A stretch of DNA of 64,000 bases from an uncultured Hyphomicrobiales bacterium (GTDB lineage: Bacteria > Pseudomonadota > Alphaproteobacteria > Rhizobiales > Devosiaceae): NCBI GenBank assembly GCA_903842455.1, contig CAIMLX010000254.1:1-64000 (forward strand), given 5' to 3'. Shown here piece after piece: positions 31,679 to 35,083 of this stretch. A model generated the notes under the pieces. The model did no database searches. It was not told the origin of the DNA and saw only the letters and a list, made by a program, of their open reading frames with translations. The stretch's first letter is position 1. Each line of letters starts with the position of its first letter. Made by a program: the position numbers and the translations under genes.

Positions 31679-32959
31679 ATGTCCACCCGCGCCGGCAGCG
31701 CTGATCTTCCCCTCCACGGCGGGCGTGTGCCGAAATGGCTGAGCGAGCGCATGGCGCGGCTCGGGGCCGTCATCTGCCAGGCCATCGTCCACGAATATGG
31801 CCGCGACGAGTTGCTGAGCCGCCTGTCGCACCCCTTCTGGTTCCAGTCCTTCGGCGCCGTCATGGGCATGGATTGGCACTCGTCGGGCATCACCACTTCG
31901 GTCATCGGTGCGCTCAAGGGTGGCCTCCGCCCGCTCGAGCGGGAGCTCGGCCTCCACGTCTGCGGCGGTCGCGGCCGGCATTCGCGAAAGACACCGGAGG
32001 AACTGATCGCAATCGGCAACCGCGTCGGCTTCGATGGCGCGGCGCTGGCCGCCGCCAGCCGCCTCGTCGCCAAGGTCGACAGCGCCGCGGTGCAGGATGG
32101 CTTCGAGCTCTATCTGCACGGCTTCATCGTCGCCGATGACGGCAAATGGGTCGTCGTGCAGCAGGGCATGAAGGGCGATAGCGGCACCGCGCGCCGCTAC
32201 CACTGGCTGTCCGACGGCTTGAAAAGCTTCGTCGATGCCCCGCATGCGGCCATCGATGGCCAGACCGAAGGCGCCATCACCAACCTCACCGACCTGCGGT
32301 CCGCCCAGAACCGCATCGCCCAGGTGCGGATGCTCGAAGCCCTCGGCCCGCATCGCATCGTCAAGGAAGCCGAAAAGCTCGGCTGGAGCAGCAAGCCCCC
32401 TGCCCCCGCGCCCGAGGACAGCGACGAACCCCTGCTCCCGCATCTCGTCATGCCCGAGCACCACGATATCCGCCCCAAGGACGTGATGCTGCGCCGCCTG
32501 CACGGCAGCCTCGAAGCCGCCGCCGAGCGGGGGCCGGAAGATTTCGAGTCGCTGCTGCTGGTCCCCGGCGTCGGCGCCCGCACCGTCAAGGCGCTGGCCC
32601 AGGTCGCCGAGGTGATCCACGGCGCCCCGCACCGCTTCGCCGATCCCGCCCGCTTCGCCATGGCCCATGGCGGCAAGGACGGACACCCGTTCCCGGTACC
32701 GCTGAAGGTCTACGACCAGACCATCGCCGTGCTGAAATCCGCGATCAGCAAAGCCAAACTCGGCCGCGAGGACGAACTGAGCGCCCTGAAGCGCCTCGAT
32801 TCCCAGGCCCGCGCCCTCGAAGCCACGGCCAGGGGCCCGAGCTTTGATCGCTTCATCGCCGAGGAGCGCGCCCGCTCGCACGAATACGGTGGCCGCACCG
32901 TCCTCGGCTGGGCCGCGCCGCCCGAACCCAAACCCGTGGTCAGAACCGGATCGCCATGA
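31679..32959 (+). CDS. DUF763 domain-containing protein
   Basis: A 426-residue cytosolic protein whose N-terminus ([14 protein letters not shown], then [17 protein letters not shown]) and [20 protein letters not shown] block identify DUF763, a family of unknown function shared with archaea. The segment [20 protein letters not shown] near residue 300 resembles a helix-hairpin-helix, suggesting nucleic-acid contact; this is inference. The ATG at 31679 was chosen because the family begins a few residues before ADLPLHGG; a GTG at 31649 lies in the probable promoter. The 3' end overlaps the convergent GNAT gene by 20 bases. Confidence 0.85.
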
Positions 32960-33572
32960 ACACGGTGTGCTCGGGCAGGCTCGCGTCCTCGAGCCGCTCG
33001 AACCCCAGCGCCCGGTAGAACGCCAGCGCCCCCGCATTGCTCGGGCTCACCTGCAGGTGCATCCCCGGCACGCCGGCGGCCGTCAGCCGCGCCATCACCA
33101 GTCGTAATGCCCCCGAACCGATCTTCCGGCCGCGGGCTTCTTCCAAAAGGTCGATATGCCCATGCGCCGGATAGTCTTGCAGCACCGGCGGATAGACGAA
33201 CTCGGGGTGATGGATGACGCGTCGCGCCCAGTCGCTGCCCGTCCAGGTGCTCTCGTCCGGCCCCGGGTCGGGCAGCCGCCGCGCCAGTGGCGGAAACCAC
33301 TCGCGCTCCATCCGGGCATAGAAACCTTCGCTGTCCGGCGTGCCGAGCACATAGCCGCACACCCCGCCCGGTCCCTCCACCACGAAGGCGAAATCAGGCG
33401 CCAACACCTGGTAGGGCACGGCGTAGATCAGCCCGAGCAGGTCCGGATCATCCTCCCGCGCCGTCGCGTCCTTGCCGGAATCGCCGGTGAGCAGGCAGAC
33501 GCGGTTCAGCGCCCCGTAGTCCGTCCACTGCGCCAGGCGCAGCGCGTAGCCATCGCCGAAATCGAGTGCCAA
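32940..33572 (-). CDS. GNAT family protein similar to the C-terminal (HAT-like) domain of animal O-GlcNAcase
   Basis: A 210-residue GNAT-fold protein starting with TTG at 33572, supported by GGAGG eight bases upstream. The pattern DDPDLLGL (about 41-48), [20 protein letters not shown] (62-80), the EWFPPL segment, [16 protein letters not shown] (139-154), and [18 protein letters not shown] near the end follows, as I recall it, the C-terminal domain of mammalian OGA block by block. Unlike that pseudo-HAT domain, R149-x-x-G152-x-G154 keeps the canonical acetyl-CoA pyrophosphate loop. The gene is 29 bases downstream of a GH84 gene, in the same direction. The acceptor is unknown. Confidence 0.82.
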
Positions 33573-33601
33573 CGCCCCGTCCTCCAGTCAGCGCTGCGCC
33601 A

Positions 33602-35083
33602 TCACAGGTGGTGCCTGTATCGGCCGCTCGGGTCCCGGGGCAGCAGTTCCTGCACCGCCACCGTGAACCCGCGCCGGTAGAAATTGTAGATGCGGTCCCG
33701 GTCGGGAAACTCCGTCCCCTCCGGGTGCCCCTCGGCCAGCCAGTCGAGGTAGGTGACGAGGTGCGTCACCTCCTCCCGCGCTTCCCACAGGTAGGGATGG
33801 AAGGCGTAGAACAGGTCGCGGTTCTCGAGTTCCGTCATCAGGTCGAACAGGTTCCGGATCCGGTCCCTGAGCCCGGTGATCGCCGCATGCCCCTCGCGCC
33901 AGGTCGCCGACGTCACGTCGGGATGCGCCTCGCTCAGCATCCGACGCGCCGTCTGCAGCAGCGCCTCCACCTCCGGCCCCTGCCGGAACGGCTGGTAGAA
34001 CAGCTCGACCAGCAGGCGGACGTCCTCCAGCGGCAGCAGCTTTGTCGGCTGCGTAAAGGCCAGCCGGAACCGCTTCTGCCAGATAGGCAGCGCCGCCGCG
34101 AGTGCGTCACCTTCGACATCCACGCCGCGGGCGAACGCCCCCGTGGTGTGCACTGGCACGAAATTGGCCTCGAACTCGTTGTTGGGGTTGGTGATCAACC
34201 CATCGATCAGCCCGAGGATTTCCGCCTTCCGTCCGCCCAGTGGCCCCGCCATCACGCGGCGGATATCGTAGTCGTTGGCGTGGAAATTCTCCCAGATCAC
34301 CGGCTTCCGCCGCAGCACCCTGCCGATCTCGCGCAGCCCCTCCGCCGACAGCGTCTTCGACACGATGTCCGGCCCCGTCCAGAACACGCCGATCTCGGGA
34401 TTGAGCCCCTCCCCGACGGTGTTGAGATAGGCCGAGCCAGGCACGTCGTGCCCCGCGAACGCACCACAATACTCGGTCGGGCAGAACAGCAGCACCGGCT
34501 GCTCCACCTGCGACTTCAGGTGCTCGAAAGCGGAGTTGGTGAAATACACCTGCGCCGCGGCGAAGCTGTCGAATGCCCTATCGTCCGCCGCCGCCATGGT
34601 GCGCGGAATGTCGTCGAACAGCAGCGCGAAATGCTTCACCCCGAGGGCCAGGAGCTGGTCGAGCCGGCGCTTCAGCGCCTTGAGGTCGCTTGCGTCCGAG
34701 TAGACGACATCAAGACATGGGGCGATGGCCACCATGAAGTTGAGCTTCCGCGCACGGGCCGCCTCGACCAGGTCCTGGAGTTCTGCGGCTTCCGCCGCAT
34801 TGTAGATTTCGCGCCAGCGCGCCCGGATCTTGATGTCGTCCTTCGGGCCGTAGACGAAGGTGTTCATCCCCGACCCGACGATCCAGTCGAGCATTTCGAG
34901 CCGCTGCCGCGGTGTCCACGCCCGGCCGTAAAACCCCTCGATCACCCCGGTGAGCAGCGGCTTCGAGGTAACGATGCCGCCCAGTTCCCGGTCATCGGTC
35001 GTGTCGAAAGTCGTGTCCATCGACCAGCCGGCGAGCCCGGGCGGCAGCGAAGAGGCGATCGGTTCGTCACGCATGATGGTCAT
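33602..35083 (-). CDS. GH84 family beta-N-acetylglucosaminidase (O-GlcNAcase-like)
   Basis: A 493-residue cytosolic enzyme (no signal peptide). GH84 landmarks are GVIEGFYGRAWT (residues 47-57), the YGPKDD block near 79, the catalytic aspartate pair D157-D158 in ALLFDDI, and ENFHANDYD near 265. GH84 enzymes remove beta-linked GlcNAc by substrate-assisted catalysis. The start (MTIMRDE) lies three bases after the permease stop; a second ATG is three codons in. Being cytosolic and downstream of an importer, it probably acts on imported GlcNAc-containing compounds, though action on cell proteins cannot be excluded. Confidence 0.9.
   Translation of the reverse strand: MTIMRDEPIASSLPPGLAGWSMDTTFDTTDDRELGGIVTSKPLLTGVIEGFYGRAWTPRQRLEMLDWIVGSGMNTFVYGPKDDIKIRARWREIYNAAEAAELQDLVEAARARKLNFMVAIAPCLDVVYSDASDLKALKRRLDQLLALGVKHFALLFDDIPRTMAAADDRAFDSFAAAQVYFTNSAFEHLKSQVEQPVLLFCPTEYCGAFAGHDVPGSAYLNTVGEGLNPEIGVFWTGPDIVSKTLSAEGLREIGRVLRRKPVIWENFHANDYDIRRVMAGPLGGRKAEILGLIDGLITNPNNEFEANFVPVHTTGAFARGVDVEGDALAAALPIWQKRFRLAFTQPTKLLPLEDVRLLVELFYQPFRQGPEVEALLQTARRMLSEAHPDVTSATWREGHAAITGLRDRIRNLFDLMTELENRDLFYAFHPYLWEAREEVTHLVTYLDWLAEGHPEGTEFPDRDRIYNFYRRGFTVAVQELLPRDPSGRYRHHL

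Follow-up and report, generated by a model that had tools for sequence, protein, structure and literature searches.

The window, a 64,000-nucleotide stretch from an uncultured, Devosia-like Hyphomicrobiales bacterium, encodes a GNAT protein that is a member of the animal O-GlcNAcase (OGA) C-terminal-domain family, in one operon with a GH84 enzyme and a sugar importer. Such a pairing was known before in one marine bacterium; what is new is its spread over several phyla and its fusion into single chains in planctomycetes. In animal OGA the C-terminal domain resembles an acetyltransferase and does not bind acetyl-CoA; bacterial single chains with acetyltransferase residues, together with sugar-uptake operons, offer proteins in which the original activity could be measured, with a bearing on the role and origin of that domain.

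A GH84–GNAT pair in a sugar-uptake operon

The five-gene operon comprises GNAT, GH84, two permeases and a sugar-binding protein (SBP), and is flanked by two divergent genes:

32940..33572 (-): GNAT acetyltransferase, OgpAT / OGA C-terminal-domain family, 210 aa, TTG start (ORF list, Pfam, phmmer, profile, AF2)
33573..33601 (-): intergenic gap, 29 bases, with a likely ribosome-binding site GGAGGA at 33580-33585, seven bases 5′ of the TTG
33602..35083 (-): GH84 OGA-type beta-N-acetylglucosaminidase with stalk domain and FYRRG...LLP tail, 493 aa (ORF list, Pfam, phmmer, tree)
35087..35926 (-): sugar ABC transporter permease 2 (ORF and profile matches)
35910..36803 (-): sugar ABC transporter permease 1 (ORF and profile matches)
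36812..38077 (-): SBP; best NCBIfam model NgcE (N-acetylglucosamine/diacetylchitobiose), below cut-off
38261..39028 (+): GntR/UTRA regulator, divergent from the operon (ORF and profile matches)
39030..39770 (+): SIS-domain protein, PRK02947 / UPF0309, a distant NagS relative (start counted from the ORF translation)

An earlier note on this DNA had described two adjacent genes, 29 bases apart in the same direction, and a linked sugar importer; the ORF check confirms the former, with GH84 as the upstream gene, and the SBP and two permeases within the operon the latter. No importer ATPase gene was found within the five genes among ORFs and profile matches. The GntR gene occupies the same position at seven other loci (L028, L029, L031, L033, L041, L044 and L045).

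The window GNAT matches Pfam Acetyltransf_1 at 2.7e-07, over the cut-off, and phmmer against the PDB ranks OgpAT (3zj0, 1.2e-70), SsAT (4bmh, 4.2e-28) and the Trichoplax and human OGAs (about 1e-12). A profile of 30 relatives finds human and Trichoplax OGA at 5e-33 to 7e-27, with positions 1-190 of 198 aligned; these two, with 3zj0 and 4bmh, take its top ranks among GNATs with known structure, and the next GNAT follows at 4e-10 over 55 positions. The AF2 model (pLDDT 96.7) gives TM-scores (query/target) of 0.91/0.94 with 3zj0, 0.86/0.89 with 4bmh and 0.86/0.87 with the Trichoplax OGA HAT-like domain (6r45_A), and the fold-search hits ranked 5-50 score 0.49-0.59 by query. Both family-specific insertions, a loop after alpha1 and helices between beta3 and beta4, are present: the alignment with OgpAT is gap-free over 10-194, and the model has helices at 81-99 and 114-121. 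The homology that the earlier note had drawn to the animal domain is thus upheld by phmmer, the relatives' profile and the fold comparison; the check it had proposed against the C-terminal part of human OGA yielded a full-length profile match above other GNATs. Its shared motif blocks were right in kind, not exact in letters: human OGA has CGYALGT, MDIHKK and EFYSKLG where it listed [21 protein letters not shown].

The GH84 protein matches Pfam NAGidase at 4.3e-75. It aligns with OgOGA from residue 43 to residue 491 (about 1e-159), and its segment 350-485 matches the human stalk chain at 4e-08, so that a C-terminal helical stalk is present, and the catalytic Asp-Asp lies in LLFDDIPR where human OGA has LLFDDIDH. 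No signal-peptide-like hydrophobic stretch precedes its barrel. A crude test, in which GH84 starts were not defined, found none in 33 of 36 linked GH84 rows with 12 residues or more ahead of the barrel; linked GH84s are therefore probably cytoplasmic, where acetyl-CoA is.

The GNAT P-loop reads R147-G-R-K150-I-G152, gap-free against Q143-G-R-G-V-G148 of OgpAT, with Lys for the usual Gly; the first and last positions of the pattern [Q/R]-x-x-G-x-[G/A] fit, and the central Gly is absent. The R-x-x-G-x-G that the earlier note took to be kept occurs only two residues out of register. OgpAT residues T25, H135, D137 and N175 are all kept, as T29, H139, D141 and N179, and His184, a 3′-phosphate contact, is Ala188. 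Across 91 labelled bacterial rows (L085, which stops short, was kept as a gap), T29 and the putative base H139 occur in 91, N179 in 90 (one gap) and the central P-loop Gly in 86; among rows examined, Lys150 is common only to the window and L028. The P-loop of the Devosia relative at L031 is standard. Judged from these residues, OgpAT-type GNATs are likely to be active acetyltransferases, as the earlier note proposed for the window protein, in which activity is less sure because of Lys150.

It is quite improbable that in the window's lineage the GNAT has already become a pseudo-enzyme like the animal domain and is retained as a partner of GH84. Lys150 at a position where 86 of 91 rows keep Gly would fit that idea, as would locus L055, whose GNAT stands beside a stalk ORF without a GH84 barrel. 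Against it, T29, H139, D141, N179, R147 and G152 are all kept; the loss of AcCoA-binding and catalytic residues that marks a pseudo-HAT is not seen, K150 being the main departure among tabulated residues. Active Gna1 also has a non-Gly residue at this P-loop position, which counts against a pseudo-enzyme.

Spread of the pairing and its fusions

We compared the window with the best 80 of at least 581 relatives from a GNAT query; these loci are not independent of one another, and the linkage rate is conditional on close GNATs because of this choice. In 34/81 loci GH84 comes just before GNAT on the same strand or forms one chain with it (the window, 32 others and one fused); these loci are from Pseudomonadota, Verrucomicrobiota, Planctomycetota and Acidobacteriota. 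Within the sample GH84 is the commonest tallied neighbour and gene order is fixed. GH84 and GNAT distances agree (r 0.86 over 43 linked pairs; none of 2,000 permutations as high). Frequency, fixed order and fusion suggest that the two proteins work on one substrate. At L069 one ORF6N-type ORF lies between the genes; L055, with its stalk ORF and missing barrel, was scored as adjacent in neighbour tallies and the residue table.

Among 385 alphaproteobacterial genomes, GNAT was found in 6, GH84 in 11 and both in 3, adjacent only in the window's own, which rules out this GNAT as a general GH84 neighbour. The ten other GH84 genomes comprise eight without a GNAT match and two with GNAT on another contig, and the five of their GH84s compared with that of the window are 29-33% identical. 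The earlier note would have given up its reading if the GNAT fell in an unrelated family, which it does not, and GH84s elsewhere lacked this neighbour, which is partly so (in these ten alphaproteobacterial genomes GNAT is either unmatched or on another contig, and 30 of 46 genomes whose GNAT lacks a GH84 neighbour have no GH84 match). Ten GH84 regions in GNAT-bearing genomes divide into seven OGA-type without GNAT in the stretch, one cut by a contig end and two of another subfamily. In two small GH84-first samples, centre genomes excluded, 1/1 match better than 1e-40 and 2/2 matches better than 1e-90 were linked; for a weaker match in the second (G689, 2e-45) the two genes sit on separate contigs. 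In a Verrucomicrobiota survey 46/337 genomes matched, none better than 1e-45 apart from the centre genome, and viral contigs searched held no relative.

In one planctomycete family 8/72 genomes encode GH84 and GNAT as one chain, colinear with human OGA. The acetyltransferase P-loop is standard in 7/8, and this half appears to be intact, so that the origin of the dead animal half can be put to the test. An AF2 model of a fused chain is good for barrel and GNAT and poor for stalk and linker, and its domain arrangement was therefore not used. Two planctomycetes (G611 and G582) encode GNAT and SIS domains in a single ORF. In a GH84 tree whose rows come largely from GNAT-bearing genomes, human OGA is placed among bacterial OGA-type GH84s of both kinds, linked and unlinked (support 95/96), and bacterial GH84s as one clade are not firmly rejected (p 0.064); the ancestral state that the earlier note saw in the separate genes is consistent with the former and, given the latter, not proved. 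One event for the planctomycete and animal fusions is rejected on this tree (AU p 0.00012, human being the one animal sequence), and the two appear independent. On the GNAT tree the human and Trichoplax sequences join each other as long branches, which leaves the animal position there tentative.

We offer as a possible history, short of a probable one, that an amino-sugar N-acetyltransferase gave rise to the OGA C-terminal domain, its task being to restore the 2-acetamido group for substrate-assisted cleavage by GH84. The enzyme would live on, active, as a separate bacterial gene or in one bifunctional planctomycete chain with the animal domain order, the animal pHAT being a dead, independently fused remnant.

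A proposed role in amino-sugar processing

Our leading reading, put forward tentatively and with somewhat less than even confidence, is that the GNAT is an amino-sugar N-acetyltransferase acetylating GlcN termini so that GH84 can cleave imported glucosaminides. In GH84 catalysis the substrate's own 2-acetamido group takes part, so the enzyme should not cleave a GlcN terminus. The operon would be an amino-sugar uptake and processing module (ABC importer, cytoplasmic OGA-type GH84, GNAT), in which the GNAT would N-acetylate imported glucosaminides at their free amino group with acetyl-CoA as donor. The likeliest target would be GlcN at the non-reducing end of beta-linked disaccharides that have lost part of their N-acetyl groups, either of chitosan type or from cell-wall material after deacetylation. 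Acetylation would license cleavage by GH84, and the freed GlcNAc would be phosphorylated and degraded, the SIS protein acting on a phosphosugar. Planctomycetes would hold both activities in one chain; animals would have fused them separately and lost the acetyltransferase. The coupling of GlcNAc release to acetyl transfer proposed in the earlier note is plausible in this order, acetylation first and cleavage second, and would give a biochemical reason for the history of the OGA fold. The studies cited here name no acceptor for any OgpAT-family GNAT.

Genomic context bears on the acceptor. The window SBP scores 70.4 bits against the NgcE model TIGR03851 (cut-off 399.65), short of an NgcE-type assignment. 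The SIS protein matches NagS (SCO4393), a GlcNAc-6P dehydratase with a SIS domain, at 1e-34; we do not accept NagS activity for it, as three homologues (25.7-35.7% identity) are reported to lack the activity (PMC12680351). Among the best 80 of at least 581 loci, a lactose/cellobiose-family EIIC lies within 6 kb of 16/34 linked versus 5/42 unlinked loci; these EIICs exceed the TIGR00410 cut-off and match the diacetylchitobiose EIIC more weakly, below cut-off, and they speak for the import of disaccharides. No importer or accessory gene was common to the window and these 80 loci. Searches of the window's own genome gave nagA-like matches, all below cut-off, as well as two of BadF/BcrAD type that exceeded theirs and lie outside the window; this genome may have a GlcNAc route.

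A rather unlikely alternative, still a real contender, is that the acceptor is free glucosamine or GlcN-6-phosphate, acetylated by the GNAT once import or hydrolysis has taken place and passed to the GlcNAc-specific pathway; the GNAT would then share the operon with GH84 only through common amino-sugar catabolism. Two of six annotated plasmid regions speak for it, with amino-sugar genes and no GH84 beside the GNAT: NagK-like-ROK-DMT-GNAT-nagB-nagA-like in Falsirhodobacter and sugar ABC-GNAT-ATPase-ROK-NagK-like in Duffyella. So do 30 of the 46 genomes whose GNAT lacks a GH84 neighbour, which have no GH84 match (genome completeness not stated). The other four plasmid regions hold no NagA/NagB/NagK-type gene, and plasmid-derived NagK-like, nagB and nagA queries found no match within 6 kb in 80 chromosomal loci (the best 80 of at least 581), so this context is rare. 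GH84 as commonest neighbour in fixed order, and its fusion in the planctomycete family, argue against it, suggesting work on one substrate.

The acceptor is less likely still to be a non-glucosamine amino sugar, a small amine or a glycoside imported by ROK-ABC-SDR loci. Mesorhizobium-type loci place the GNAT with ribose-type ABC, ROK and SDR genes, and among the best 80 of at least 581 loci SDR lies near 13/42 unlinked loci and a DegT-type aminotransferase near 8/34 linked ones; serotonin could fit the SsAT cavity (PMC3919268). The nagB, nagA-like and NagK-like neighbours in the two plasmid loci point to glucosamine. Very improbable, finally, is a bacterial O-GlcNAc/acetylation signalling pair in which the GNAT acetylates protein and GH84 strips protein O-GlcNAc. 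O-GlcNAc peptides are substrates of OGA-type enzymes, which counts for it, and the window GH84 belongs to the subfamily closest to human OGA; the GNAT fold resembles Naa50 and RimI (PMC3814719). Operons with sugar importers, the SIS-domain fusion and loci with nagA-like and nagB genes tell against it.

For glucosaminide acetylation before GH84 cleavage count family and fold, GH84 linkage, distance agreement, kept residues, cytoplasmic GH84, EIIC, plasmid context, GNAT-SIS, RmNag and SsAT; against it count the OgpAT Kd of 5 mM, Lys150, rare nag context, GH84-less genomes, GNAT-less OGA-type GH84 regions, Mesorhizobium-type loci and the SBP score.

Comparison with known systems

The idea of a split pair is not new, having been published for Oceanicola granulosus (OgOGA-OgpAT), whose GNAT binds acetyl-CoA, unlike the human domain (Rao et al. 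2013, PMC3814719); a later test gave OgpAT a Kd of 5 mM (PMC12494797). The O. granulosus locus (L041) agrees with the window in gene order, importer, GntR and SIS genes, with 61% (GNAT) and 55% (GH84) identity over aligned parts, and differs in its P-loop, Q-G-R-G-V-G against R-G-R-K-I-G. Animal OGA (human, Trichoplax) shares the domain order GH84-stalk-linker-GNAT fold, and by eye the split GH84 tail consensus GFYRxG...LQxLL resembles human AFRGG...LLP before the pHAT domain. It differs in being one chain that does not bind AcCoA (PMC12494797), and human and Trichoplax OGA depart from bacterial GNATs at T29, H139, N179 and the P-loop.

SsAT of Streptomyces sviceus (He et al.) belongs to the same GNAT family, with an AcCoA Kd of 20 uM and a cavity suited, in its authors' view, to a small molecule; the accessible text mentions no GH84 partner (PMC3919268), and on the GNAT tree SsAT falls in a group without GH84 neighbours. 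The fungal enzyme RmNag joins a GH3 beta-N-acetylglucosaminidase to a glucosamine N-acetyltransferase region, a different hydrolase family and another GNAT. Its entry 4ZM6 is absent among the 60 listed of 81 profile matches and the 50 best fold matches to the window GNAT, and RmNag therefore serves as an analogy, not as a family member. RmNag is reported to cleave (GlcN)2 only with AcCoA (PMC4680927), the sugar being acetylated and then cleaved, as we propose for the GH84–GNAT pair.

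The GH84–GNAT pair and its residues

The minus strand of the window carries, as the earlier note had proposed, two adjacent same-direction genes encoding an OGA-type beta-N-acetylglucosaminidase (GH84) and an acetyltransferase of the OGA C-terminal-domain family (GNAT):

33602-35083, minus strand: GH84, upstream of the GNAT, gap 29 bases
32940-33572, minus strand: GNAT, last in the operon, downstream of the GH84

Two permeases and one sugar-binding protein share this operon, which bears out the suggested link to a sugar importer; a GntR regulator and a gene for a SIS-domain protein (SIS, a distant NagS relative) run in the opposite direction. 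The GNAT begins at a TTG codon with GGAGGA 7 bases 5′ of it, and its 3′ end overlaps by 20 bases with a convergent DUF763 gene (31649-32959). Elsewhere in the window, inspection by eye picked out three consecutive enolase/mandelate-racemase-like ORFs (24804-28987) followed by an RraA-like ORF (29015-29782), and overlapping EpmB/KamA- and EpmA-type-looking ORFs (40675-42860), adjoined by a DHDPS-family gene (39767-40678) that is convergent with the SIS gene.

The nearest GNAT relative among the matches listed is from a MAG named Devosia equisanguinis (93% identity), which suggests a Devosia-like source for the window. A single-sequence search retrieved OgpAT of Oceanicola granulosus (3zj0, 1.2e-70), SsAT of Streptomyces sviceus (4bmh, 4.2e-28) and animal OGA (~1e-12). 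A 30-row GNAT profile, 198 positions long, aligned along positions 1-190 to both human and Trichoplax OGA (5e-33 to 7e-27), the next GNAT reaching 4e-10 over 55 positions only. For an AF2 model, OgpAT, SsAT and animal OGA entries came out on top (TM by query 0.83-0.91), with ranks 5-50 at 0.49-0.59. Profile and predicted structure, ranking human and Trichoplax OGA with OgpAT and SsAT above other GNATs of known structure, thus support the proposed resemblance to the C-terminal HAT-like domain of animal OGA (pHAT). Residues 43-491 of the window GH84 align with OgOGA, the O. granulosus GH84 (~1e-159). The OgpAT gene lies directly downstream of that of OgOGA (Rao et al. 2013, PMC3814719), and the window pair is of the same kind, one more member.

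OgpAT was obtained in complex with acetyl-CoA (AcCoA), and the human OGA domain is reported there to bind none (Rao et al. 2013, PMC3814719). Likewise, a 2025 paper saw no AcCoA binding by the eukaryotic pHAT domains that it tested, and gives OgpAT from O. granulosus a Kd of 5 mM (PMC12494797); SsAT binds with a Kd of 20 uM (He et al., PMC3919268).

In the OgpAT register, the window GNAT has T29, H139, D141, R147, K150, G152 and N179. Among 91 labelled bacterial rows (44 in which a GH84 is adjacent or fused and 47 in which it is not, leaving aside rows at contig edges), T29 and H139 are present in all and N179 in 90, and position 150 is Gly in 86 (otherwise 2 Lys, 1 Ser, 1 Glu and 1 gap). The family looks catalytically conserved from these alignments, and the window departs from the conserved residues at one P-loop position, K150. 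Because K150 replaces the central Gly, the R-x-x-G-x-G motif previously read as intact is absent in register. Position 141 is Asp in 44/44 linked rows (GH84 beside or fused to the GNAT) and Asp (34), Asn (12) or Ala (1) in the 47 others, a possible specificity marker.

Linkage across relatives

In the best 80 of 581 GNAT relatives, a GH84 lies directly upstream on the same strand at 32 loci (one, L069, with an intervening ORF) and is fused to the GNAT at one, L056, so that 34 of 81 loci are linked with the window included. Those assigned to a phylum come from Pseudomonadota, Verrucomicrobiota, Planctomycetota and, with one locus, Acidobacteriota. Another 42 lack a GH84 there, four are too close to a contig edge, and L055 has a stalk ORF only. 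This Trueperaceae locus (L055:8605-10588) encodes a 139-aa stalk ORF with a terminal GGLVAELQRLLP segment and then the GNAT, with a phosphotriesterase-related gene upstream; a search of its genome gave no GH84 match.

On the GNAT tree, the adjacency label requires 12 changes, against a mean of 27.6 and a lowest value of 21 in 300 shuffles, and GH84 and GNAT distances over 43 linked pairs correlate at 0.86 (0/2000 permutations as high), both without a species-tree control for kinship. In 46 genomes the GNAT stands without an adjacent GH84, counting those at a contig edge; a genome search found a GH84 elsewhere in 16 of them and no match in 30. Seven of ten GH84 regions examined from the 16 hold an OGA-type GH84 and no GNAT in the stretch; one ends at a contig end and two belong to another subfamily. 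With 34 of 81 loci linked, these 30 genomes and seven GNAT-free regions make the link frequent but often broken. Published bacterial GH84s also have other domain partners (named in PMC12494797), and a Thermobaculum OGA is described without an acetyltransferase domain (PMC4683255).

A GH84 tree (54 rows, careful setting) places human OGA within a set of 16 (support 95/96), whose other members are 9 bacterial rows linked to a GNAT and 6 that are unlinked or at a contig edge; its grouping with alphaproteobacterial rows has support of only 65/54. Joining human OGA to L056 was rejected (p 0.00012), and a single clade of all bacterial OGA-type rows was not (p 0.064). Human OGA is the only animal sequence on the tree and the sampling is biased towards GNAT-bearing genomes, so these results on its placement are suggestive only.

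Single-chain planctomycete proteins

L056 encodes GH84, stalk, linker and GNAT in one frame. Its best PDB matches are human OGA (~1e-101), with a second aligned stretch that extends from the stalk across the FRGG linker into pHAT; OgOGA outscores human OGA when only the GH84-stalk part is considered. A neighbouring ORF is, by eye, pilin-like and of what we take to be planctomycete type, which supports a bacterial origin of the contig. The L056 family has matches in 13 of 72 genomes: eight, counting L056's own, are full-length single frames without a stop, two end at contig ends, one has a weak GH84 match only, and two have a GNAT with no GH84 within 1.5 kb on either side. The single-chain proteins are 53-72% identical to L056. 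All eight keep T29, H139 and N179, and seven have a standard P-loop (central Gly to Ser in L169). An EIIC sugar transport gene follows the fusion in L056 and in all six others with sufficient flank; L168 shows only the beginning of one.

Across 343 Planctomycetota (8 matching), the fusion occurred only in L056's genome. GH84 and GNAT genes overlap in different frames in genomes G611 and G582, and lie on separate contigs in G689. By eye, the C-terminal tail of split GH84s lines up with the linker of the fused proteins; the fused order could therefore have arisen when a single stop between adjacent genes was lost.

Amino-sugar context and a proposed order of steps

A lactose/cellobiose-family EIIC gene lies within 6 kb at 16/34 linked, 5/42 unlinked and 1/4 edge loci, and a SIS gene at 6/34 linked and 4/42 unlinked loci. 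GNAT and SIS domain form one ORF at two closely similar planctomycete loci (L124:1489-2856 in G611; L125 in G582). Of 35 plasmid records with a GNAT match, eight regions were examined, six of them annotated. The Falsirhodobacter plasmid has the order NagK-like-ROK-DMT-GNAT-nagB-nagA-like (nagB over the cut-off, nagA-like below); a Duffyella plasmid carries sugar ABC genes, the GNAT, an ATPase, ROK and a NagK-like gene (below cut-off), and an Agrobacterium plasmid ROK and Gfo/Idh/MocA genes. Annotated regions of one Mesorhizobium and two Streptomyces plasmids lack amino-sugar context. NagK-like, nagB and nagA queries from the plasmid loci had no match within 6 kb at any of the 80 loci (best 80 of 581 relatives), which counts against the generality of this context. 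Mesorhizobium-type chromosomes have the order ROK-ABC-SDR-GNAT, with the GNAT last in the operon; at L029, L031 and L033, the GNAT is bordered downstream by a ROK-ABC(ribose type)-SDR operon that converges on it.

GH84 catalysis relies on the 2-acetamido group of the substrate, as established for the family (PMC10636738). A GlcN terminus should therefore block GH84, and an acetyltransferase in the cytoplasm, encoded next to GH84 or in one chain with it, would acetylate before GH84 cleaves. This proposal fits the position of the acetyltransferase and the sugar importers. Homology, adjacency, fusion and residue conservation are direct observations, to which we add by inference the acceptor, the order of steps and a role for SIS. 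Among the open-access titles and abstract starts listed, none dealt with licensing of GH84 by acetylation or with a bacterial single-chain GH84-acetyltransferase, making the fused forms a variant not found in print in this mainly open-access literature. A published parallel is RmNag, a GH3 beta-N-acetylglucosaminidase with a glucosamine N-acetyltransferase region, which is described as acetylating before cleavage: the order of steps is the same as the one proposed here, whereas its protein families differ from GH84 and the window GNAT type (PMC4680927).
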